A stretch of 32,936 nucleotides of DNA from a virus, in IMG/VR virus record IMGVR_UViG_3300032516_005602, positions 1 to 32,936 of that record. One strand, written 5' to 3'. Within the stretch, counting starts at the first letter, position 1; each line of letters starts with the position of its first letter. This document shows, piece after piece, positions 38-11,542 of this stretch. The notes beneath the pieces are model-generated. The model did no database searches, was not told the origin of the DNA, and was given only the letters and a program-made list of their open reading frames with translations. Both the position numbers and the translations under genes were made by a program.

Positions 38-43
38 TTGTAT

Positions 44-1051
44 ATGTCTGGTTATCTCATCTTTGGTGGTACTGGTTCGCTTGGAAAAAAATTAATTGAA
101 CGCCTATTACCGCGTTCGCCAATACATGTTTATTCTCGAGACGAAGCAAAACATTGGACAATCAAAAATGAAATTGGTTCAAATTCCAATTTACATTTTC
201 ATGTTGGTGACATTCGTGATAAACAAAGAATTGTAAATACACTTCGACAAGTTGTACCTGAAAATATCATTATTGCTGCTGCACTCAAACAAGTTGATAC
301 ATGTGAACTAAGTCCAAGTGAAAGCATATTAACAAATCTGTCAGGAACACAAAATATTATTGATGCCATTAATGAAGATCCACGTTGTGTTAAAAAAGTT
401 TTATTTGTTAGCACCGACAAAGCATGCGCCCCGGTAAATGTGTATGGAATGTGTAAAGCCATTTCAGAAAGAATGGTCACTAGTCAAGCTAGAACAGGTC
501 ATCGTCATATTTCTTATCTTGCGACTCGTTATGGAAATGTCCTTGAATCTCGAGGAAGCATAATTCCATTGTTTAAATATCAGGCTGAAAATACCAATCA
601 ACTCACTGTAACAGATCTAAATATGACACGATTTGTAATGACACTCGATGATAGTGTTGATTTGATTATGAATGCTTTCAATAAAGGAAATTCTGGAGAA
701 ACATGGATTCCGAAAATTCCAGCAATGAGAATTGGTGATTTAGCTGAATTGTTTTCTGAAAGATATAACAAGTCAATAAAATTAATTGGACTTCGACCAG
801 GCGAAAAAATGCACGAAGACTTGATCAATGAATCTGAATCATTTCGAACACGTCAAATTGATAATCATTACGTCATAGGTCCAGCTTATGAACCAGGTTA
901 TTCTGCAAAATTTATTTATACCAGTGCAGATGATGTTATGTCAAAACAACAACTAAAAGATCACTTGACAAAACTTGGAATTTTTGACATGTCTTTAGAG
1001 AAATTTCAAGGTCTTAAGATTGATGAAATTATGACAAATAGGAAAGACTAA
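44..1051 (+). CDS. pseB: PseB-like UDP-GlcNAc 4,6-dehydratase (NAD(P)-dependent extended SDR)
   Basis: This is an extended short-chain dehydrogenase of the PseB/FlaA1/CapD-like family, which converts UDP-GlcNAc to a 4-keto-6-deoxy-hexosamine, the first step to pseudaminic acid and related sugars. Visible features are the nucleotide-binding GGTGSLG near residues 8-14, STDKA at about 123-127, the catalytic YGMCK (Tyr134, Lys138), RYGNVLESRGS at about 162-172 and RPGEKMHE near the C-terminal third, all in family order. The 335-residue length is normal for PseB. I chose the ATG at 44; a TTG two codons earlier is possible. The next gene starts one base after the stop, so the two are surely cotranscribed. 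The dehydratase family is secure. Exact stereochemistry (PseB against CapE/FlaA1 relatives) is not. Confidence 0.9.
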   Translation: MSGYLIFGGTGSLGKKLIERLLPRSPIHVYSRDEAKHWTIKNEIGSNSNLHFHVGDIRDKQRIVNTLRQVVPENIIIAAALKQVDTCELSPSESILTNLSGTQNIIDAINEDPRCVKKVLFVSTDKACAPVNVYGMCKAISERMVTSQARTGHRHISYLATRYGNVLESRGSIIPLFKYQAENTNQLTVTDLNMTRFVMTLDDSVDLIMNAFNKGNSGETWIPKIPAMRIGDLAELFSERYNKSIKLIGLRPGEKMHEDLINESESFRTRQIDNHYVIGPAYEPGYSAKFIYTSADDVMSKQQLKDHLTKLGIFDMSLEKFQGLKIDEIMTNRKD

Positions 1052-1052
1052 A

Positions 1053-2195
1053 ATGTATCCTCTTTTTAAAGTACATACTCCCGAAGGTGCCTTAGGCAAC
1101 ATCAAAGAAGTGCTTGAATCAGGTTTTATTAATGAAGGTGTTCAAGTTACTCAACTTACACAACAACTTCAAAAAATCTTAAATAGCGATAAGCTAATTT
1201 TAACAAATAGCTGTACGTCAGCATTGACGTTGGCACTAAAACTTGCTGATGTTACATGTCATTCACGTGTTCTTACAACGCCAATGACATGTGTTGCAAC
1301 AAATACTCCCATAATCAATCTTTGCTCTCACATTACATGGGCTGATATTGATCCAATTTCTGGAATGATTTCTGTTGACGACGTTGATAAAAAACTTAGC
1401 GAATTTATGCATAGCATAAAAGCAATCATGGCAGTTGCATGGGCAGGAACTCCTCCTGATCTTGAAGGTCTTCGTGATGTTGCAAATAAACATGGAGTTC
1501 CACTAATACTTGATGCTGCTCATGCTTTTGGTGCAACGTATAAAGGACGCCCAATACATGAGTTTGCAGATTATACGTGTTATAGTTTTCAAGCAATCAA
1601 ACATTTCACAACTGGCGATGGTGGTGCATTGATTTGTAGTAATGCTGATAAACATGCACGTTCAAAATCACTTAAGTGGTTTGGTCTAGATAGAGATAAA
1701 GCCAAAGATGACAATGGAAATTGGAAAGGTCAACAATGGGATGTTGACATAAGTGAGGCAGGATTCAAGTTCAATATGAACAACATTTCTGCTGCTGTTG
1801 GCTTAGCACAAATTGATCATATTGACATGATTTTGAAAGCCCATAGAAAAAATGCTGAACTATATGATGAATACTTCAAAACACACACCATGGTAAAACA
1901 TTCGAGTCGCCCAGATGATTGTGAATCAAGTTTTTGGGTTTATACGATGCTCGTACAAGACAATTCAAAGCTTTCACGTGATCAACTTTTGAAGGCACTT
2001 AACGCCGAAGGAATAATGGCGGGTGTTGTTCATATTCCAAATGACGATTACACTGCGTTTGATGAATATAAAACTGACTTACCAGGTGTTCGTGATTTTT
2101 CATCTCGTCAATTTTCATTACCTTGTGGCTGGTGGCTGAAACAGAGTGATATTAAACATATTGCTGATCGTGTTAAGGAGCTAACAAATGAGTGA
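1053..2195 (+). CDS. pseC: PseC-like DegT/DnrJ/EryC1 aminotransferase
   Basis: This is a PLP-dependent sugar aminotransferase that would aminate the 4-keto sugar made by the upstream dehydratase, giving a UDP-4-amino-4,6-dideoxy hexosamine. The fold-type I signature is clear: TNSCTSALTLAL at about 51-62 (phosphate binding), DAAHAFG at 154-160 with the Asp that holds the PLP nitrogen, and SFQAIKHFTTGDGG with the Schiff-base lysine at 183. The 380 residues match the family length. The gene follows its dehydratase partner by one base and overlaps the next gene by 8 bases. PseB and PseC as neighbours is the usual order in pseudaminic acid loci. PseF, PseG and PseI homologues are not in the window, so the final sugar is unknown. 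Confidence 0.88.
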   Translation: MYPLFKVHTPEGALGNIKEVLESGFINEGVQVTQLTQQLQKILNSDKLILTNSCTSALTLALKLADVTCHSRVLTTPMTCVATNTPIINLCSHITWADIDPISGMISVDDVDKKLSEFMHSIKAIMAVAWAGTPPDLEGLRDVANKHGVPLILDAAHAFGATYKGRPIHEFADYTCYSFQAIKHFTTGDGGALICSNADKHARSKSLKWFGLDRDKAKDDNGNWKGQQWDVDISEAGFKFNMNNISAAVGLAQIDHIDMILKAHRKNAELYDEYFKTHTMVKHSSRPDDCESSFWVYTMLVQDNSKLSRDQLLKALNAEGIMAGVVHIPNDDYTAFDEYKTDLPGVRDFSSRQFSLPCGWWLKQSDIKHIADRVKELTNE

Positions 2196-2925
2196 TAAAC
2201 ACATAGTTGTTACGGGAGCAAACGGTGGAATAGGTCATCAATTGGTTGATCACTTGATTAGTGATGGTTATCGTAACATCACATGTCAATATAGAAAAAA
2301 TAATGATAATATCAAAAAAGTGTTTGAAAAACACGATCTTTCATTTGAAAAACATTGTTATGAAGCCGATTTAACAGATGAACAACAAGTTGAAGACTTT
2401 CATCTTAAGAGTTTAAGTGCACGTGGAAATACGTGGGGATTAATCAATCTTGTTGGCGTTTCTTCAAATGCAATGAGTTGGAAAATATCAACTCATGATT
2501 TCATACGAGTGATGGATGCGAATGTCTTAACTACATTTTTAACCTGTCGTGCGTTTTCACAAACTATGCGTGAACAAAAAGGTGGAAGGATCATCAATAC
2601 ATCTAGTATTGTTGCATATGCAGGAACAATAGGCGCCGCACATTATTGTGCAGCAAAAGCTGCAGTAGTTGGTTACACCAAAGCACTATCATTAGAACTA
2701 GCAAACAAAAACATAACAGCAAATATTTTGGCACTTGGTTATTTCAACGCAGGAATGATAAGTGATCTATCACCGGAAATACAACAAAGTGTTATTGATA
2801 AAACGCCACTTAAGCGTTTTGGAAATGTTAGTGAAATCTCTGGTCATGTGAAATTATTGTTAAGCAACGAAAGTTCATTTACGACAGGTCAAGTTTTTCA
2901 TATTAATGGTGGTTGTTATCTGTAA
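2188..2925 (+). CDS. SDR-family oxidoreductase (FabG/PtmA-like)
   Basis: This is a classical short-chain dehydrogenase/reductase of 245 residues. It has the cofactor motif TGANGGIG at 9-16, the structural Asn112, a catalytic serine in TSS at 138-140 and YCAAK (Tyr153, Lys157), followed by a Rossmann C-terminus ending in a typical GQVFHINGG. It starts inside the preceding gene with a good ribosome site (AAGGAG, 2175-2180) and shares one base with the next start codon (TAATG). SDRs of this kind occur in sugar loci (for example PtmA in legionaminic acid regions), so oxidation or reduction of the sugar made by the neighbours is likely. The substrate cannot be read from the sequence. Confidence 0.85.
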   Translation: MSDKHIVVTGANGGIGHQLVDHLISDGYRNITCQYRKNNDNIKKVFEKHDLSFEKHCYEADLTDEQQVEDFHLKSLSARGNTWGLINLVGVSSNAMSWKISTHDFIRVMDANVLTTFLTCRAFSQTMREQKGGRIINTSSIVAYAGTIGAAHYCAAKAAVVGYTKALSLELANKNITANILALGYFNAGMISDLSPEIQQSVIDKTPLKRFGNVSEISGHVKLLLSNESSFTTGQVFHINGGCYL

Positions 2926-3839
2926 TGAACAATTTTCAGTTTAGACAACTTAATTTATTGAATGAAATAGAGCCGCTTAAGCAATTTCATAATCGATTGT
3001 TTAAAAGCACAGATGCATCATCTGAGTGGCTTTTGTGGTATTGTACCATTCACGGAAAAGACAAACATGCTAGAGTTTATGGTGTATGGGATGATTCTCG
3101 ATTGGTTGGTATTTGGTGTGTAGAACCTAAAATATTTCAACATGGAGGAATAAAGATTAAAGTTGGAAGGTGTTTTTCTGTTGGAATTGATGATGATTAT
3201 CGTCGACGTAATTTATTTGTTGAATTAAGTAAATTTGCAATCCAAAAAGAAATAGATCTAGGTGAATTTGACTACATCTTTGGATTTCCACAAATAGGAC
3301 GATCTATTGTTAATGCACATATAAAAGCTGGATGGTATCACGTACAAAACATCCAGATGTATAGCAACAAAACAAAACCCGTTGAACCAACTTCACTTAA
3401 AGACGTCAACACGAGTAGTTTAATTGAGTACTTGCCTTTGTCGATGAACAATTCATTTATTGAAACTATTGATTATAAAAATACAAGATGGTTTAAACAT
3501 CCAGATTTACTTTATGTGTGTTTAAAACGATATGAAAGTTGTGTGATCGTCAAACCATATAATAACGTGTGTCATATCTTAGATCTTTATGGAATATCAT
3601 GTAATGTAAAAATTATTCTTAATGCACTAAGAATGTTGGCTCATAGACATAAATGGCAAGAATTAACAATCTGGAATGCTGACAATGAGCGTTATCATAA
3701 TGATATAATTGCATGTGATTTTGTTCCTGGCGCAACCAATGGATCGTCGGTTTCAATGTTAGCAGTTAACATTAATCGCTCAGAAAATATCAAATTTGAT
3801 TCCTGTCATATTCAGATGGGAATTGAAGAAATTTATTAA
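2925..3839 (+). CDS. Putative GNAT-type acetyltransferase
   Basis: The 304-residue protein begins at the ATG of a TAATG overlap; an in-frame TTG four codons earlier is less likely. Its first half looks like a diverged GNAT fold: strands around GVWDDSRLVGIWCVE, then IDDDYRRRNLFVELSKFA, which sits where the acetyl-CoA loop (R/Q-x-x-G-x-G/A) normally lies but lacks the canonical glycines, then IVNAHIKAGW, a typical GNAT beta5-alpha4 segment. The second half has no motif I recognise. In context it may acylate the amino sugar made by the PseB/PseC pair or a glycan. The family call is moderate and the substrate is unknown. Confidence 0.55.
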   Translation: MNNFQFRQLNLLNEIEPLKQFHNRLFKSTDASSEWLLWYCTIHGKDKHARVYGVWDDSRLVGIWCVEPKIFQHGGIKIKVGRCFSVGIDDDYRRRNLFVELSKFAIQKEIDLGEFDYIFGFPQIGRSIVNAHIKAGWYHVQNIQMYSNKTKPVEPTSLKDVNTSSLIEYLPLSMNNSFIETIDYKNTRWFKHPDLLYVCLKRYESCVIVKPYNNVCHILDLYGISCNVKIILNALRMLAHRHKWQELTIWNADNERYHNDIIACDFVPGATNGSSVSMLAVNINRSENIKFDSCHIQMGIEEIY

Positions 3840-3847
3840 CAGTTTCA

Positions 3848-4387
3848 ATGACACCATTATTTGTTCCAACTAACATGTGTTTACGACCGATCGAACCCAC
3901 AGATCATAGTTTTCTTGTTGAACTTCATAATGATCCAGAGGTATTAAAAAATCTGACAAATCACATACCAATCACAATGGAACAACATTTGTCGTGGTTC
4001 AACAACACGTCACAAGATTCAAAACAACTACGCATGATGTTTTGTGTTGATGATCGTCCAACAGGATTTACAAAATTCTATAACATCGATACCGCAAACA
4101 AAAATTGTGTATTAGGTGCTGATTTACATAAAAATTGGCGTGGTGTTGGTTTAGCAAAGTATATGTGGACGTTAATGTTGAAAGAATGTTTTGATGTTCG
4201 CAAATTGCATCGTGTAAGTTTAACAACTGCTTCATATAATGCGATTGCAATTAATGTTTATAATAATCTTGGATTTTGTAAAGAAGGATTTTTGATTGAT
4301 TCGTTATTTCGTGATGAAAAATATCATCATCAAATATGCATGTACATGTTACGTGAAATGTGGGAAAGTCCAACGTTATGGAAATAA
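3848..4387 (+). CDS. GNAT N-acetyltransferase (RimJ/RimL/PseH-like)
   Basis: A compact GNAT acetyltransferase of 179 residues. The opening LRPIEPTDHSFLVELHNDPEV is the classic RimJ/RimL-type start, HKNWRGVGLAKYMW carries the R-G-x-G-x-A acetyl-CoA loop, and the N-x-Y-N-N-L-G-F-x-x-E-G run is the usual C-terminal segment. Its position behind a PseB/PseC pair matches PseH, which N-acetylates the 4-amino group of the PseC product. It starts eight bases after the previous stop and overlaps the next gene. The family is secure. The PseH role is inferred from context. Confidence 0.82.
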   Translation: MTPLFVPTNMCLRPIEPTDHSFLVELHNDPEVLKNLTNHIPITMEQHLSWFNNTSQDSKQLRMMFCVDDRPTGFTKFYNIDTANKNCVLGADLHKNWRGVGLAKYMWTLMLKECFDVRKLHRVSLTTASYNAIAINVYNNLGFCKEGFLIDSLFRDEKYHHQICMYMLREMWESPTLWK

Positions 4388-5106
4388 CACCTAAGATCTT
4401 TGTTGGTACAATGTATTGTCGAGAAGGCGATTTTATTGATTGTTGTCATGCAATTAACAAACAAACTAGTGTAATCATTACACATCATATTATCAAAGAT
4501 ATGCCTGAAAAAGAAGCACACAATGAATTGTGGTCTGCCTGGCGTGCAGCAAAACAAGATCATGACATGTTTGTCAAGATAGATGCTGATACTGTCTTGA
4601 CAAACAACGAGATCTTGTCTGAATTTTGGAACGTCATGCAAAATAACGTTCGAGTGACAGGAATCCAAGCACCGTTATTAGATTACTTCACAGATGGTTA
4701 CATCAATGGTCTAAATTGCTTCAGTCCCAAAGTTGTCTTTCAAGATACGACTGATGGATTATTTTGTGATCGTCGCGTTGACATAAATCATGACATGATT
4801 ATAAAAGCAACTGATGTACCACAATCACTCAAACCAGCAGGTTATCACTGTTATAAAGCAACGTCCGAACAAGCATTTCATTTTGGTCTTCATAGGGCTT
4901 TAAAAAATCAGCACGACATAATGTCACTAGTACGTGAAGCATGGACGAGAAACAAAGATCGAATACGTGGAATGGCATTGATTGGCTCTTCAATAATCAC
5001 ACAATTTCGTGAAGGAGGGTTCAATTACGTTGATGAACAATTTCAAACTGCATTTAACACTAGCACAAACAATTATGATGAATTGATCACAAAGTTTGAA
5101 CAATGA
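4378..5106 (+). CDS. GT-A-type glycosyltransferase
   Basis: This 242-residue protein starts at the ATG overlapping the previous gene by 10 bases, behind a GGGAAAG ribosome site; a GTG at 4360 is an alternative start. An N-terminal beta-strand (KIFVGTMYCREGDF) is followed by FVKIDADTVLT, in which Asp69-Ala-Asp71 forms the DxD metal and nucleotide-sugar motif of GT-A enzymes. The length equals one catalytic domain with no membrane segment, so it is probably soluble. It shares ATGA with the next gene, a second glycosyltransferase candidate. Donor and acceptor are unknown. Confidence 0.7.
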   Translation: MEITPKIFVGTMYCREGDFIDCCHAINKQTSVIITHHIIKDMPEKEAHNELWSAWRAAKQDHDMFVKIDADTVLTNNEILSEFWNVMQNNVRVTGIQAPLLDYFTDGYINGLNCFSPKVVFQDTTDGLFCDRRVDINHDMIIKATDVPQSLKPAGYHCYKATSEQAFHFGLHRALKNQHDIMSLVREAWTRNKDRIRGMALIGSSIITQFREGGFNYVDEQFQTAFNTSTNNYDELITKFEQ

Positions 5107-6035
5107 AAAAAGTCATTCAAATTATCGACTCGTACGAGTATGTTAACACAAATTGTTTTCAACATCAATTATTGAAGAAAGTAAAGAATAATTTTGAGCA
5201 TACATTACTTCAATTGCATGATTTACCAATTTCATTACCAGATGATGTTACAATTTTTTGTACAGTAAAAATACGTAACGTTTATAAACATATCGATAAA
5301 ATTGCTAATGTTTTAAAGCATAAAAATGTCTTAATATACGATCAAGATCCATGGGAATCATTCATAGATACAGCAACGTATCCTAATGGATATAAAAATC
5401 TTATCAATAAGTTACCTCATGCTGAGTTCATCAATGCTTCAAAATGGTGGTCTAAGTTTGTAAATGATCAGGGAATGAAATCACATTTTTGTAGAATGTG
5501 GGTTTTACCAGAATATTGCACATCTGGAAATGCTTTCGAAAACAGAGAACAAGGATTATGTTTTAGGGGATCTGTTCATCAAGATCGAAAATATGGCATC
5601 ATAACGATGTCAAATTTAGGTTGTCCAATAAGAGTAATTCCAGGCACATCAGATTATAGCGCGTGGTTATCATGGCTACAAACGCAACGAGCATTTTTTT
5701 ACGATGAGTTACCGTCCTGGTCAATCAATGGAATTGTTGGTTCAAAACACGTTCAAAAACCAAAAAACGTTGAAATCATTTCACAAGGTTGTTTCATATT
5801 TCACGACGCCACATGTAAAAGCGAAGATGAAAGTTATGAACTCACAAATGTACCATGTGACATTGTATTTGAGTCTTACGAACATTGCGTTGAATTATAC
5901 AATGAATTCATCAAGAAACCGAATGGATTAATGAATGAAATGATTAATGAGTCTGTCGATAAAATCAAAAAAATCGATGGTTGGAATGATGTCATAAAAG
6001 TTATAACGTCCCATACTCCACATGTGTACATGTGA
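5103..6035 (+). CDS. Putative GT-B-like glycosyltransferase
   Basis: The protein has 310 residues and starts in an ATGA overlap. It begins with a Rossmann-like strand (KKVIQIIDSYEY), has the phrase VLIYDQDPWE near the middle of the N-terminal half, and near residues 222-235 has VEIISQGCFIFHD, which resembles the E-x-x-x-x-G-x-x-x-x segment of GT4-type donor sites. These are weak individually but fit a GT-B glycosyltransferase, and the gene sits at the end of a sugar cassette. It is shorter than typical two-domain GT4 enzymes (about 360-400), so a diverged or reduced form is likely. Confidence 0.5.
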   Translation: MKKVIQIIDSYEYVNTNCFQHQLLKKVKNNFEHTLLQLHDLPISLPDDVTIFCTVKIRNVYKHIDKIANVLKHKNVLIYDQDPWESFIDTATYPNGYKNLINKLPHAEFINASKWWSKFVNDQGMKSHFCRMWVLPEYCTSGNAFENREQGLCFRGSVHQDRKYGIITMSNLGCPIRVIPGTSDYSAWLSWLQTQRAFFYDELPSWSINGIVGSKHVQKPKNVEIISQGCFIFHDATCKSEDESYELTNVPCDIVFESYEHCVELYNEFIKKPNGLMNEMINESVDKIKKIDGWNDVIKVITSHTPHVYM

Positions 6036-6040
6036 GATTT

Positions 6041-6048
6041 TATAAATA
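6041..6048 (+). promoter_or_regulatory. T4-type late promoter (TATAAATA)
   Basis: An exact TATAAATA octamer, the T4 late promoter consensus, sits in the 23-base gap before the dehydrogenase at 6059. With T4 spacing the transcript would begin only a few bases before the ATG, and no Shine-Dalgarno sequence is visible. A gp55-like sigma factor that could use it is encoded at 14330-15100. Confidence 0.6.
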
Positions 6049-6058
6049 AGATTAATAG

Positions 6059-7009
6059 ATGAAATCAATTGCGGTCATCGGACAAGGTTTTGTTGGAGGA
6101 TCTATCACCACGGTTTTTGCAGAACATGGGATCGACGTTTACACATACGATAGACTAGGAATAGTAGCCTCCGGCGGGAAAAAATCTGTCATCTTGGCTG
6201 AAGATCATCTACCTGTCAGACCCGTCAAATCGATCACCGATCTTGTGAATTGTTGTCAACACCCCAATATTGCAAAACAGTTTTCTGGGATCTATTTTGT
6301 CTGCGTTCCTACTCCAATGTATGAAGACGGGTCTGCTGACACGTCAATCGTAGAAAGCGTTCTCAAAGAGCTATCGAACGTGCCCGGTGAAAGGATTGCA
6401 GTCATCAAGTCGACCATTCCTCCCGGGTCGACAGAAAAATGGAACAAGCAATTTGCAAATACCGGTCTTAGGATCGTGTTTAACCCAGAATTTCTTCGTG
6501 AAGCAACTGCACTTGACGATATGAGGAACCAAACTCGAATTATCTTGGGCGGTCCTCGCCCATATATCAATAAAGTCAAACAACTCTTTGAATCTGTATT
6601 TCAGAACGTACCGATCATTAAGACGTCAAGTACGACAGCCGAAATGGTCAAGTACTTTATTAATGTTCAATTAGCAACTCGCGTTGTGTTAAGCTGTGAG
6701 TTTTGGCAACTTTGTAACGCACTTGACAACAAAGGATTCAATATTGATTTTGATAAAGTTATAGAATATGCAAAATATGACTCACGACTTGGTGGTTCAC
6801 ACATGAACGTTCCAGGTCAAGATGGCATACTAGGTGCTCGTGGACACTGTTTTCCAAAAGATCTAGCAGCAATTATTGCGATATCAAAAAATTTGGAATT
6901 AAATGCAAGCTTAATGCAAGCGGTTCAAACAAAAAACTTGGAACTAGTGCCGCCAGAGCACAGAGACTGGGAAAAGATGATCGGTCGTGCAGTCACAAAA
7001 AAGTCATAA
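6059..7009 (+). CDS. Shortened UDP-glucose/GDP-mannose dehydrogenase family protein
   Basis: An NAD+-dependent nucleotide-sugar 6-dehydrogenase. Visible are the Rossmann loop GQGFVGG (8-14), VCVPTP (81-86), STIPPGST (118-125), NPEFLREA (142-149), the conserved Lys198 in MVKYFIN and GHCFPKD with the catalytic Cys264. The enzyme would oxidise a UDP-hexose to the uronic acid. At 316 residues it stops soon after the catalytic domain, whereas the family is usually 390-450 and carries a third UDP-binding domain. That domain is essentially missing, so activity or partner use may differ. The first 420 bases are about 45% G+C by hand count, richer than most neighbours. There is no obvious ribosome site; see the late promoter just upstream. 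Confidence 0.85.
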   Translation: MKSIAVIGQGFVGGSITTVFAEHGIDVYTYDRLGIVASGGKKSVILAEDHLPVRPVKSITDLVNCCQHPNIAKQFSGIYFVCVPTPMYEDGSADTSIVESVLKELSNVPGERIAVIKSTIPPGSTEKWNKQFANTGLRIVFNPEFLREATALDDMRNQTRIILGGPRPYINKVKQLFESVFQNVPIIKTSSTTAEMVKYFINVQLATRVVLSCEFWQLCNALDNKGFNIDFDKVIEYAKYDSRLGGSHMNVPGQDGILGARGHCFPKDLAAIIAISKNLELNASLMQAVQTKNLELVPPEHRDWEKMIGRAVTKKS

Positions 7010-7120: not shown

Positions 7121-8152
7121 ATGAATGAATTTGGCGTTTACATAGGCAGGTTTCAACCTTTTACTAATGCACATGAAGAAGCTGTGCGTTTTGCACTTTC
7201 TAAGGTCAATAATCTCATTATTGTTCTTGGTTCTGCTTCTCAAGCTCGTACAATTAAAAATCCTTGGTCAAGCCAAGAACGAATCGCAATGATTCGAGCG
7301 TGTTTGTCACCAGCAGAAAATATTCGTGTTGAATTCATTGAAGCAAAAGACTATTTGTATAATGATAATTTGTGGATCACAGCCGTTCAAACGAAGATTG
7401 AAGCGTTAACAAACGGGTCAAAAAATGTTATTTTGATTGGTCATCGTAAAGACAAGTCTAGTTTTTACTTGAATCTATTTCCACAATGGGAATTCATTGA
7501 AACTGGTGACTATGCTAAACATCTTGATGCATCATATGTTCGACGCCTTTATTTCGAAAAGGATTTGCTAGACGTCAAACGCTTTGTTCCAAGTCCAGTT
7601 TTTAATGTGCTTAAATCGAGCATGATGAAAGATGATGTAACTCCTCAAAAAGAGTTCAATGAACTTCAAGAAGAATATCATCACATCCTGAATTACAGAA
7701 AATTGTGGGAGACTTCACCATTTCCCCCGACGTTTGTGACCGTTGATGCAGTCGTAATCAAAAGTGGACATATTCTTGTTGTTCGTCGTCGAGCAACTCC
7801 GGGTAAAGGACTATTTGCACTTCCAGGTGGGTTTCTTAACCAAGACGAACAAGTTAAAGACGGTGCAATACGAGAACTCAAAGAAGAAACTGCTATCAAA
7901 CTAACGAAGGACGAACTTCTAACTGCACTACGAGACAAAGAAGTATTTGATCACCCGGGACGTTCACTTCGAGGTCGAACAATTACACATGCATTTTGTT
8001 TCGATCTTGGACATGGACCTCTTCCAAAAGTAAAAGGCGAAGACGATGCTGATAAGGCATGGTGGATGCCACTACGAGATGTTTTTGCCAACGAAGAAAA
8101 GTTCTTCGAAGATCATTTTCACATTATCAATTTTTTTGCTTCAAAATTCTGA
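7121..8152 (+). CDS. nadM: Bifunctional NMN adenylyltransferase / Nudix hydrolase (NadM-Nudix, NatV-like)
   Basis: A fusion of two domains, 343 residues, matching the known NadM-Nudix architecture of bacteria and of Vibrio phage KVP40 NatV. The N-terminal nucleotidyltransferase (about 1-170) has GRFQPFTNAH at 9-18 (the GxFxPxHxGH signature) and would join NMN and ATP to form NAD+. The C-terminal Nudix domain has its box at 237-259: GFLNQDE, then REL, then KEE, matching Gx5Ex7REUxEE, with Ala where the last Gly is usual. That domain probably hydrolyses ADP-ribose or a related nucleotide. The start has a strong ACGGAGAG site. NadV follows 52 bases later, giving a complete two-step route from nicotinamide. 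Confidence 0.92.
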   Translation: MNEFGVYIGRFQPFTNAHEEAVRFALSKVNNLIIVLGSASQARTIKNPWSSQERIAMIRACLSPAENIRVEFIEAKDYLYNDNLWITAVQTKIEALTNGSKNVILIGHRKDKSSFYLNLFPQWEFIETGDYAKHLDASYVRRLYFEKDLLDVKRFVPSPVFNVLKSSMMKDDVTPQKEFNELQEEYHHILNYRKLWETSPFPPTFVTVDAVVIKSGHILVVRRRATPGKGLFALPGGFLNQDEQVKDGAIRELKEETAIKLTKDELLTALRDKEVFDHPGRSLRGRTITHAFCFDLGHGPLPKVKGEDDADKAWWMPLRDVFANEEKFFEDHFHIINFFASKF

Positions 8153-8160
8153 AACGTAAA

Positions 8161-8179
8161 ATCCTCTAGAGAAGAGGAT
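8161..8179 (+). other. Intercistronic RNA hairpin
   Basis: ATCCTCT and AGAGGAT form a perfect 7-bp stem around an AGAGA loop, between the stop of nadM and the ribosome site (ACGGAGAG) of nadV. No T-run follows, so it is not a classical terminator. It could be a processing or stability element that sets the ratio of the two enzymes. Confidence 0.5.
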
Positions 8180-8204
8180 CGATAACAAACATACGGAGAG
8201 TATC

Positions 8205-9638
8205 ATGAAAAATATAGAAATAAAACCAGATCTAGTCCTCAATAACATTAACGACACTGATTCGTACAAGTTTAGTCACTGGATGCAATATCCAAAAGGA
8301 ATGAACCTGATGTTCAGTTACCTTGAATCTCGAGGTGGTGAATTCGATACTTGTACGCTATTCGGTCTACAGGTCATCATTCACAAGCATATTGCAAAGA
8401 AATTCTCGCTTATTGATATTAATGAAGCACAGCGTGATGCTGATTTGCATGGTGAACCCTTCAATCGTGAAGGGTTCTTGCATATTCTCAACAAATACGA
8501 TGGTCACATGCCTGTTAGAATTCGTGCAATTCCTGAAGGTCTCATCGTGCCAGTAAAAAACGCAATCATGACAATTGAGATTATTAACGATCCAGAATGC
8601 TTTTGGATTACTAACTGGTTAGAAACTAAATTGTCCCGCGTTTGGTACCCTTCGACAATTGCAATCATGAGTCGTGAAGTAAAAAAGACGTGGAAACAAT
8701 ACCTTGAACTATCGTCTGATAATCCAGACGCTGAAATTGGGTTTAAACACCATGATTTTGGTGCTCGAGGAGTTACGTCTCAAGAACAAGCGATGTTTGG
8801 TGGTGCTGCTCACTTGCTAAGCTTTCTTGGTTCTGACTCACTCGCTGGAATTAAGTGTGCAAATTACTACTACGATGAACAGATGTCAGGTTTTTCTATT
8901 CCTGCAACTGAACATTCGACAATGACAGTTTGGGGTCGTGATGGCGAATATGCCGCACTCAAAAATTGGGTTCAAAAGACGCTTGTTGAACGTATTGTTC
9001 CTGTAGGTGTACCAAAACTTTCTGCTTGTGTTGGAGACAGTTACGATATCTACAAGTTCGTTGAGATGATTTGTAGTCAAGAAATTCAGGAAATGATCGT
9101 AAGTTCTGGTGGCACGCTGATTGTACGACCAGATTCTGGTGATCCTAGTGAGGTGCTCCCGAAGATGTTTGCAATTTTCGAAAAGCATGGCCTCGTTACC
9201 AAGAACTCGAAAAATTTCAAGATTCTTCAACCTCATCTACGTATCATTTGGGGTGATGGTATTAATCGGCGGTCGATGAAGGATATTTTGAAACTCGTGA
9301 CGGATCTTGGTTGGAGTGCATCGAATATTGCATTTGGCTCGGGTGGTGGTCTATTACAGGATGTTAATCGTGACACGCAGAAATTTGCGTTTAAGTGTTC
9401 GTATGCTCAAATTAATGGAGAAGGTATCGATGTTAGAAAAGATCCAATTACTGATCCTAGAAAGAAAAGCAAAGCTGGAAGGCTTGATTTGATCAAGACT
9501 TCAAACGGTTACCAGACAATTTGTCTAAATGATGACGTAATTGCTCATCCAGATAGTGTTATGGTAACAGTGTTTAATTGTGGTAAAATTACCAACAATA
9601 CGACGTTTGCTGAATGCAGGGAGAGAATGACAATTTAA
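8205..9638 (+). CDS. nadV: Nicotinamide phosphoribosyltransferase (NadV/NAMPT)
   Basis: This enzyme joins nicotinamide and PRPP to form NMN, the substrate of the upstream NadM domain. The 477-residue protein shows the NAMPT signatures in order: NDTDSYKFSHWMQYP near 16-30, FGARGVTSQEQA near 185-197, the catalytic His237 in PATEHSTM, VGDSYDIYKF, RPDSGDPSEVL (the phosphoribosyl-binding region) and a Gly-rich FGSGGGLLQDVNRDTQ late in the protein. Length is normal for the family. A strong ACGGAGAG ribosome site, a near copy of the one before nadM, lies upstream. The pair forms the phage NAD+ reconstitution pathway called NARP2. Identification is secure. Confidence 0.95.
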   Translation: MKNIEIKPDLVLNNINDTDSYKFSHWMQYPKGMNLMFSYLESRGGEFDTCTLFGLQVIIHKHIAKKFSLIDINEAQRDADLHGEPFNREGFLHILNKYDGHMPVRIRAIPEGLIVPVKNAIMTIEIINDPECFWITNWLETKLSRVWYPSTIAIMSREVKKTWKQYLELSSDNPDAEIGFKHHDFGARGVTSQEQAMFGGAAHLLSFLGSDSLAGIKCANYYYDEQMSGFSIPATEHSTMTVWGRDGEYAALKNWVQKTLVERIVPVGVPKLSACVGDSYDIYKFVEMICSQEIQEMIVSSGGTLIVRPDSGDPSEVLPKMFAIFEKHGLVTKNSKNFKILQPHLRIIWGDGINRRSMKDILKLVTDLGWSASNIAFGSGGGLLQDVNRDTQKFAFKCSYAQINGEGIDVRKDPITDPRKKSKAGRLDLIKTSNGYQTICLNDDVIAHPDSVMVTVFNCGKITNNTTFAECRERMTI

Positions 9639-9795: not shown

Positions 9796-10149
9796 ATGAA
9801 TATAGAGTTACAAGTTTTACGTGCAAAAATTATAGGATTTCAGTCTGTTGGTATTTCAATAAAGAATCAAATCAGCAAATCTGCTGGTTTGAAACGCGAT
9901 AAATTGTGGCAACGAAAAAGAGCACTTGGGTGTTATAATAGAGAACACCTAATTGCTTATGGTTTACTACGTGGTGTTCCATACGAAAAGATCGAAAATA
10001 AGTGCGCAAAATACAACAAGCCAAACGTCGACAAAATTTACGTGTTGATAAAACAACACGGCGGGTGGAAAGCTCAAGAACTCACACCCGAAAAAATGCT
10101 AGCATTGTTAAGCCCACCAAAAGCCCTCGAAAAAAACGAGGAAAAATGA
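9796..10149 (+). CDS. Small basic protein of unknown function
   Basis: The 117-residue protein is not recognised. It is rich in Lys and Arg, with a cluster around KRDKLWQRKRALG (about 34-46), then NREHLIAYGLLRGVPYEKIE, which reads as helix-turn-helix-like or at least compact helical structure. There is no signal peptide or membrane segment. It has a near-perfect TAGGAGG ribosome site that is locked in a 13-bp hairpin, so its translation is probably switched. Its stop overlaps the start region of the peptidyl-tRNA hydrolase and two CUA tRNAs follow, so an RNA- or ribosome-related role is a reasonable guess. Only the context supports that. Confidence 0.8.
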   Translation: MNIELQVLRAKIIGFQSVGISIKNQISKSAGLKRDKLWQRKRALGCYNREHLIAYGLLRGVPYEKIENKCAKYNKPNVDKIYVLIKQHGGWKAQELTPEKMLALLSPPKALEKNEEK

Positions 10150-10151
10150 CG

Positions 10152-10496
10152 ATGGCTACTATAAAAACGGGTGATAAGCTTTTTCTGGTGACACGTCGAG
10201 ACATCTCGGCTGGTTATCAAGCAGTACAATCATGCCATGCAATCAGACAATTTACCGCCGAGCATCCAGAAGTTGATGTTGAGTGGTTTCAAAAATCAAA
10301 TTATCTTGCGTTACTCTCTGTAGAAAACGAAGTTGAATTGATGAAATTAATCACTAAAGCACATGACTTTGGTCTTCGTTGGTCAGCATTTAGAGAACCA
10401 GATGTTGGTGGTGCAATTACTGCAATTGCAATTGAACCAAATTCTAAAACAATTGAAATGTGTAAACACCTACCGTTGGCTTTAAAAGAAATGTAA
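10152..10496 (+). CDS. pth2: Peptidyl-tRNA hydrolase, PTH2 family
   Basis: Pth2 enzymes cleave the peptide from peptidyl-tRNAs that drop off ribosomes. The 114-residue protein shows the family pattern: KLFLVTRRDISAGYQAVQSCHA (matching the K/R-x-x-A-Q-C-x-H-A helix), a middle strand YLALLSVENEVEL, then FREPDVGGAITAIAIEP, matching the C-terminal D-x-G-x-T-x-I-x-x-x-P strand pair, with Gly in place of the usual Arg/Thr. Length is typical. I chose the ATG at 10152 because the GAGGA site (10138-10142) is then well spaced; the ATG at 10146, overlapping the previous stop, is an alternative. It lies directly before two tRNA genes, which fits a role in tRNA recycling. Confidence 0.78.
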   Translation: MATIKTGDKLFLVTRRDISAGYQAVQSCHAIRQFTAEHPEVDVEWFQKSNYLALLSVENEVELMKLITKAHDFGLRWSAFREPDVGGAITAIAIEPNSKTIEMCKHLPLALKEM

Positions 10497-10510: not shown

Positions 10511-10584
10511 GTCCTCGTAGCTCAGTGATAGAGCAACGGATTCTAAAGCCGATTTGGTCGAGGGTTCAATTCCCTCCGAGGACA
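10511..10584 (+). tRNA. tRNA with CUA anticodon (amber suppressor type), irregular anticodon arm
   Basis: The acceptor stem GTCCTCG/CGAGGAC is a perfect 7-bp pair with discriminator A (10584). The D stem is GCTC/GAGC and the T arm is GAGGG-TTCAATT-CCCTC. The anticodon loop TTCTAAA (10541-10547) gives CUA at 10543-10545, which reads UAG. The anticodon stem ACGGA/GCCGA has only three canonical pairs, with A-A and A-G at its ends, and the variable region is 7 bases. An alternative fold has AACGG/CCG(A)TT around a 9-base loop. No encoded CCA. The acylated amino acid is unknown. Confidence 0.75.
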
Positions 10585-10591
10585 CAAATAT

Positions 10592-10675
10592 CGCTCAAAA
10601 GCTCAAAGGCAGAGCAGCGGTTTCTAGAACCGTCCGAAAGGTAAAGGGTTGTGGGTTCGACTCCCACTTGGGCGG
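10592..10675 (+). tRNA. tRNA with CUA anticodon (amber suppressor type), class II, serine-like
   Basis: The acceptor stem CGCTCAA/TTGGGCG has six Watson-Crick pairs and one G-U. The D stem is GCTC/GAGC. The anticodon stem GCGGT/ACCGT encloses TTCTAGA (10622-10628), giving CUA at 10624-10626. A 17-base variable region (10634-10650, containing CCGAAAGG) and the T arm GTGGG-TTCGACT-CCCAC complete an 84-base class II tRNA. The long variable arm with discriminator G (10675) is the tRNA-Ser pattern (Leu and Tyr use A73), so serine insertion at UAG is the best guess. It lies 7 bases after the first tRNA. Confidence 0.82.
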
Positions 10676-10732: not shown

Positions 10733-11542
10733 ATGTCAGAACAAAAATTTACAAACCTTCCAACGGGAAAACCTCATATAAGTTTCAGTGAACTTAGAGA
10801 TTGGAAGGAATGTTCCTGGCGTCACAAGCTAAAGTACATCAATAAATTGGTCGAAGACAAACCTGGTCCATTAATGGATTTTGGAACAGCATGCCATGCG
10901 GCTTGCGAAAAGTTCTTAAAATCTAGGATCATGGATTCAAGCATTGCAAAGAACATGCTAGCCCAATTGTGGGAAAAAAACGCAGCATTTGAAGGTTACA
11001 CACCTGAAGCACTTCCTCAATTTTTTGCTGAGCTCGATTTGATTTTGTCAGAAGTTCCAAAATTTATGGATGAAACATTCCCAAATTGGGAGTACGTTGA
11101 TGCTGAGCATATGTTATACGAACAGATTGAAGGCCATGACCATGCATTTAAAGGATTTATTGATGGTGTCATTGCTGTTACTGATGCAAAAAATAAAAAA
11201 TTGATCTGGTTATTGGATTGGAAAACTACGTCTCGTGGTTGGTGGCGTGAAAAGAGAACTGATGAACTTGTAAAGACACAACTCATCCTTTATAAAAACT
11301 TTTGGTCAAAGAAAATCGGTGTTGATCCAAAAGATGTACGATGTGGGTTTATCTTACTAAAAAGATCCGCAAAAAAAGAACAACATTGTGAACTATTTGC
11401 ATTGTCAGTTGGAGATGTAACAACCGGTCGATCGTTAAAGGTTGTCAATAATATGTTGACGAGTATTAAACGAGGAATTGCAATCAAGAATCGATCGTCA
11501 TGTACATATTGCAATTATTTTAACACACCACACTGTGTGTGA
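10733..11542 (+). CDS. PD-(D/E)XK nuclease with Cas4/AddB-like Fe-S cysteines
   Basis: The 269-residue protein has the layout of RecB/Cas4-type exonucleases: SFSELRDWKECSWRHKLKY (17-35), FGTACHAACEKF (near 51-62), the metal-binding Asp144 in FIDGVI, Asp162-Trp-Lys164 in LLDWKTT (the D/E-x-K core) and QLILYKNF (motif QxxxY). Cys27 near the start and Cys257, Cys260 and Cys268 at the very end match the four-cysteine cluster-binding pattern of Cas4 and AddB, so a 4Fe-4S cluster is likely. No cas1, cas2 or helicase is adjacent, so it is probably a stand-alone phage recombination or degradation nuclease. The ATG has no clear ribosome site; TAG codons directly before it exclude an upstream extension under the standard code. 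Confidence 0.85.
   Translation: MSEQKFTNLPTGKPHISFSELRDWKECSWRHKLKYINKLVEDKPGPLMDFGTACHAACEKFLKSRIMDSSIAKNMLAQLWEKNAAFEGYTPEALPQFFAELDLILSEVPKFMDETFPNWEYVDAEHMLYEQIEGHDHAFKGFIDGVIAVTDAKNKKLIWLLDWKTTSRGWWREKRTDELVKTQLILYKNFWSKKIGVDPKDVRCGFILLKRSAKKEQHCELFALSVGDVTTGRSLKVVNNMLTSIKRGIAIKNRSSCTYCNYFNTPHCV

Follow-up and report, generated by a model that had tools for sequence, protein, structure and literature searches.

Stop-anticodon tRNAs accompany a predicted PTH2-type peptidyl-tRNA hydrolase in standard-code phages, a candidate module acting at translation termination

Background

A 32,936-base IMG/VR fragment of a phage genome (IMGVR_UViG_3300032516_005602, hereafter the window) carries two tandem tRNA genes with the anticodon CUA, which is complementary to the stop codon UAG, beside a gene for a predicted PTH2-type peptidyl-tRNA hydrolase. 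The locus raises the question of whether TAG has been reassigned to an amino acid in this phage, as an earlier sequence-only reading of the window had suggested, and, if not, what such tRNAs may serve. A stop-anticodon tRNA is by itself no proof of recoding. Single or paired suppressor tRNAs are already known from the standard-code jumbo phages XacN1, RsoM2USA and Atu_ph07, and so far they have been noted genome by genome, with neither a target nor a partner. We propose, with a probability of roughly 0.55, that the CUA tRNAs and the adjacent PTH2 form a phage module acting at translation termination, in a phage group whose genetic code is not reassigned and in whose members related to the window the cognate stop is in normal use.

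Results

ARAGORN, which the sequence-only reading had proposed as a check, returned CTA for both genes, at 10543-10545 and 10624-10626 (in each case from position 33 of the gene onward), and no sense anticodon; Rfam RF00005 scored them at 59.2 bits (tRNA 1) and 50.9 bits (tRNA 2) against a cut-off of 29, so that both programs agree with the pair as first described. Each gene folds as a tRNA and carries an anticodon that pairs with a stop codon, and the two adjacent tRNAs differ in their discriminators, A73 in tRNA 1 and G73 in tRNA 2. The anticodon stem of tRNA 1 is weak, with only three canonical pairs and the mismatches A27.A43 and A31.G39, whereas all five pairs are formed in tRNA 2, which has a long variable region. 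The CCA end is encoded in neither, and Rfam found no theta ribozyme at the window tRNAs.

The gene that stops 14 bases upstream of tRNA 1 is a predicted PTH2. Its product matches Pfam PF01981 at 32.7 bits, above the curated cut-off of 23, and stays below the NCBIfam equivalogue cut-offs for PTH2; among control genomes, PTH2 was present in 4/4 archaeal and 0/10 bacterial ones. Relatives of the window were gathered via the baseplate protein, and several were read almost whole, three of them 309, 340 and 369 kb in length. Every relative that covers the locus has PTH2 and stop tRNA in synteny. The sequence-only reading had singled out the tRNAs, which are indeed conserved there, and had left unmentioned the PTH2 next door, the more informative feature.

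The linkage was then measured across IMG/VR with a PTH2 model built from the window clade only, using loci with a matched tRNA-Trp pattern as control; counts from these scans refer to the matches listed (up to 120 per scan), near-duplicates included, and their p-values are nominal. PTH2 lay within 3 kb at 40/118 CUA loci and at 1/118 tRNA-Trp controls, always on the strand of the tRNA (40/40 linked CUA loci). Among contigs with listed lengths of at least 60 kb, the proportions were 13/38 for CUA and 1/26 for tRNA-Trp. At loci with multiple tRNAs, the CUA tRNA was the one nearest PTH2 in 11 of 15 cases, against an expectation of 2.4. In the reverse direction, 27 loci were fetched by the PTH2 protein alone, with a narrower alignment replacing one too diverse for searching, and 26 of them had a same-strand stop tRNA within about 3.4 kb; outside the window clade this held for 9/10 PTH2 loci, one of them with UUA, on a background of 3 stop tRNAs among 940. 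The strand, nearest-tRNA and reverse tests are not tied to genome size in the way that the proximity count is. At some PTH2 loci, stop tRNAs are the only tRNAs present.

Annotated phages reached via PTH2 with a stop tRNA nearby are Myrna, HyRo and ScoobyDoobyDoo, together with three huge phages of 462 kb (CUA), 485 kb (UUA) and 735 kb (LR756501, CUA). One pairing in many unrelated phages suggests a shared phage tool at the point where protein synthesis ends. No published report of the pairing was found in the literature searched, which leaves out many journals. CUA tRNAs lie just 3' of PTH2 in the cultured mycobacteriophages Myrna (L507:4466-4537, annotated as tRNA-Ser) and HyRo (L508:4614-4687, unannotated).

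The scan for CUA tRNAs had left the anticodon stem unconstrained. Among the matches listed, this stem was fully paired in 50/103 distinct CUA tRNAs and in 310/402 sense tRNAs of the same loci (p=4e-8). Excess mismatches fall at the ends of the stem: 27-43 was unpaired in 29% of CUA and 14% of sense tRNAs, 31-39 in 27% and 6%, and both together in 8 CUA tRNAs and no sense tRNA. The double mismatch occurs in window tRNA 1 and in both tRNAs of XacN1. Where 27-43 is unpaired and the anticodon is CUA, stronger UAG readthrough has been described (PMC13092985). Tandem CUA pairs were present in at least seven scanned loci, at least two of which had identical tRNAs.

At the locus itself, CUA tRNAs are found in the window and in three other lineages, the 309-kb relative G001, L163 and L172-L174, while the other relatives have tRNAs with an 8-base loop, N-Y-U-U-C-A-A-N. 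A UUC or a four-base reading of this loop is also conceivable; it is best read as UCA (opal), since U33 is kept in every case (22/22) only in that register. A tree built from four proteins encoded nearby shows the CUA lineages as paraphyletic, with most of them branching off early; the UCA state is therefore probably derived, having arisen once or twice. Stop anticodons persist while the remainder of the tRNA diverges. Members of a pair share the same type of stop anticodon and differ in their acceptor ends, usually with A73 first and G73 second, which argues against their coding for one amino acid and makes precise amino-acid coding unlikely as the point of the pair. Comparison of tRNA bodies gave the stop tRNAs no clear assignment, their nearest average match being the Arg tRNAs that the phages themselves encode, and a search of five relatives for phage aminoacyl-tRNA synthetases found none of Gln/Glu, Trp/Tyr or Ser/Thr/Pro type. 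The tRNA-Glu of Erwinia phage Kaldavass was considered as a relative of UCA type and rejected, its sequence being that of an ordinary Glu tRNA.

Stop usage was examined in the window and its relatives. The 27 complete window genes end in TAA (16) or TGA (11) and never in TAG, counts that reproduce those first reported. The probability of 0/27 is 0.006 if TAG occurs at the rate that trinucleotide counts imply; it rises to 0.06 for a TAG share of 10% and to 0.10 for the 8% of G001. With so few genes the zero count is weak evidence; the sequence-only reading, too, had called the absence of TAG weak by itself. Coding density in the window under code 11 and with TAG as sense, a comparison that the sequence-only reading had put forward for the whole genome, was essentially the same (0.964 and 0.966), frames upstream of a TAG were short, and the window's structural genes held no in-frame TAG; by density and in-frame TAG the window does not fall with code 15. 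Homologues of the window genes had no in-frame stop except near gene ends. TAG ends 16/192 homology-supported genes in G001, which carries the same tandem CUA pair, and 22/227 in the UCA relative G003 (p=0.73), and in the large UCA relatives TGA still makes up about 78-82% of stops. TAG as a normal stop, which the sequence-only reading had named as evidence against recoding, is thus seen only by proxy, in G001 as a stand-in for the window's own full genome. What stands of that reading is a set of stop-codon tRNAs kept at the locus across relatives; the TAG recoding that it suggested is not supported.

PTH2-linked CUA loci look mostly standard-code as well: 72/533 simple open reading frames end in TAG, and reading TAG as sense raises coding by more than 10% in only 3/35 loci. 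LR756501 (L510) has two in-frame TAG codons in its PTH2 gene (3971-4330), with a tandem CUA pair about 2 kb downstream (6421-6574). Because of the in-frame TAG this phage is taken to be recoded, and the module thus occurs in recoded phages too.

Discussion

The stop-tRNA/PTH2 module itself is well supported. As to its mechanism and targets, we infer that the tRNAs would be charged, would suppress stops in the cell and would cooperate with PTH2, and that particular messages would be affected. In the proposed sequence of events, stop tRNAs with weakened anticodon stems would compete against release factors at UAG (at UGA in sister lineages), some ribosomes would pass the stop codon or falter there, and PTH2 would hydrolyse the peptidyl-tRNAs that drop off, so that the tRNA could be recycled. 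Stop tRNAs are known to rival release factors, readthrough can strand ribosomes, stalled, without a stop codon, and PTH-type enzymes free dropped-off peptidyl-tRNA (PMC8012679); the presence of tRNA and PTH2 in one module fits this. If correct, the module would give phages a route to acting on host termination with the code unchanged. Through the tie to PTH2, suppressor tRNAs gain a definite partner and a function open to testing, and the presence of the pairing in cultured mycobacteriophages makes gene deletion a way to test it.

Several observations weigh against this proposal. No target gene was found in a comparison of homologues that was not exhaustive. In the relatives, the choice of stops gave no sign of readthrough pressure, and back-up stops were not enriched behind cognate ones. 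PTH2 lacks a nearby stop tRNA in two huge phages. XacN1, RAS14, Phosso and Atu_ph07, all cultured jumbo phages that carry stop tRNAs, have two or three PF01981 matches each, but a stop tRNA is not known to adjoin their PTH2. The opal identity of the 8-base-loop tRNAs is a reading of the loop.

Among other explanations, programmed readthrough that yields C-terminal extensions of a few particular phage genes, or of a single one, would account for stop-reading tRNAs that are conserved without general recoding, and it was also weighed by the authors of XacN1 (PMC5852040). It seems possible but improbable, as a search that was not exhaustive turned up no conserved gene in which one site is TAG in CUA phages but TGA in UCA phages. 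Nor did that search reveal a convincing readthrough extension after cognate stops; the apparent conserved extensions among those listed looked like downstream genes that overlap or abut. The only clean in-frame stop to emerge from all-against-all tblastn was a TAG at a conserved Gln site of a SpoT-like HD gene in G001 (G001:228191-228780, in L013), just upstream of the CUA pair. It was rejected as a readthrough target, the gene also being frameshifted near its end and the CUA relative L163 having CAG at that site; it is probably a decayed gene or a sequencing error.

Stop tRNA and PTH2 might instead jointly stand in for a release factor, as a two-part system built on tRNA; this is a tentative idea to which we give little weight. 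The tRNA would enter at the stop codon and take the peptide, its weak anticodon arm would favour drop-off, and PTH2 would free the peptide. Stops would then stay stops, the added amino acid would be irrelevant, and UAG, UGA and UAA versions would be interchangeable. The present data do not separate this idea from readthrough and drop-off.

It is doubtful that the stop tRNAs serve as decoys or spares to counter host defences that cut tRNA, or the loss of tRNA. Their odd loops, weak stems and lack of a visible coding role would suit such a function, and a stop anticodon, by avoiding the misreading of sense codons, might be the least harmful choice; however, the specific tie to PTH2 would be left unexplained, as would a mismatch excess that falls precisely on the two ends of the stem with a known influence on decoding.

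Reassignment of TAG to an amino acid in the manner of code 15 phages, whether throughout the genome or in late genes that lie beyond the window, is a poor prospect. The CUA tRNAs and the absence of TAG stops from the window are in its favour, and some phages with PTH2 and CUA tRNAs, such as LR756501, are recoded, but the normal TAG stops of G001, the flat coding density, the lack of in-frame TAG in the structural genes and their homologues, and the differing discriminators of the two tRNAs all speak against it. Least probable of all is that the linkage is a by-product of tRNA-rich jumbo phages carrying both elements, or that the tRNAs are decaying relics: carriers often are jumbo phages with dozens of tRNAs and weak stems could reflect decay, yet the strand, nearest-tRNA and reverse tests, the loci that hold stop tRNAs alone and a stop anticodon that outlasts divergence of the tRNA body all stand against it.

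The proposed termination module has partial parallels in known systems. Xanthomonas phage XacN1 (AP018399; PMC5852040), which uses the standard code, has two adjacent CUA tRNAs with A73 first and G73 second, the same double mismatch, and in the second tRNA the GCUUUCG acceptor arm of the window pair; its authors found no target for the tRNA-Sup pair (PMC5852040). XacN1 nevertheless belongs to another phage group by baseplate search, its pair lies in a tRNA-bearing terminal repeat with PTH2 encoded far away, and the likeness of the pairs does not establish common descent. RsoM2USA (CUA; PMC8504454) and Atu_ph07 (UCA; PMC6102473) are likewise standard-code jumbo phages with a stop-anticodon tRNA, and Atu_ph07 also encodes peptidyl-tRNA hydrolases (PMC6102473); unlike the window they have single tRNAs, and in the portions of these reports consulted the authors propose no link to PTH2. 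Recoded phages (code 15, crAss-like, Lak) share the CUA tRNA, and PTH2 matches also occur in Prevotella phages, but TAG is sense in many of their genes and a normal stop in the window's relatives. Theta ribozymes accompany many suppressor tRNAs of recoded phages (PMC10879173). In tRNAs with four-pair anticodon stems, too, unpairing at stem ends is tied to stop readthrough (PMC13092985); those, however, are tRNA-Trp(CCA) reading UGA near-cognately, whereas tRNAs of the window type carry anticodons cognate to the stop and do not resemble tRNA-Trp.

Table 1. Features at the stop-tRNA locus of the window
Feature	Position	Strand	Basis
Conserved neighbour, 117 amino acids, no family match	9796..10149	+	Kept beside PTH2 in relatives
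Predicted PTH2-type peptidyl-tRNA hydrolase gene	10146..10496	+	Pfam PF01981, PHROG matches, linkage to stop tRNAs
tRNA 1	10511..10584	+	ARAGORN, Rfam RF00005
tRNA 2	10592..10675	+	ARAGORN, Rfam RF00005
PD-(D/E)XK nuclease gene, downstream	10733..11542	+	Pfam PF12705, synteny

Relatives spanning the locus (Table 1) keep the order NMNAT/Nudix, NAMPT, unknown gene, PTH2, (SpoT-like), stop tRNA(s), PD-(D/E)XK nuclease, two glycosyltransferases and a sigma-like gene. The nuclease gene is probably not part of the module's function; it played no role in finding the PTH2 loci outside the clade, and no relatives were found in bacterial genomes when sought through it.

Besides their CUA or UCA tRNAs, two relatives have UUA (ochre) tRNAs within their main tRNA clusters (G001:288775-288850 and G004:76570-76661). 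Three large relatives encode short release factor 1 (RF1)-like proteins on the minus strand (L237:1456-2271 in G001, L238:1453-2040 in G003 and L239:1456-2076 in G002); of about 200-270 amino acids, they have the RF-1 domain, only the end of PCRF, the GGQ motif and the tripeptide PPT at the RF1 PxT position, and may be a further sign of these phages acting on termination. Upstream of PTH2, window positions 7121-9638 hold nicotinamide adenine dinucleotide (NAD) salvage genes, a nucleotidyltransferase/Nudix fusion and a nicotinamide phosphoribosyltransferase, kept there in relatives. Positions 38-7009 hold sugar dehydratase, aminotransferase, acetyltransferase and UDP-glucose-dehydrogenase-like genes which, judged by sequence without a family search, form a surface-sugar block.
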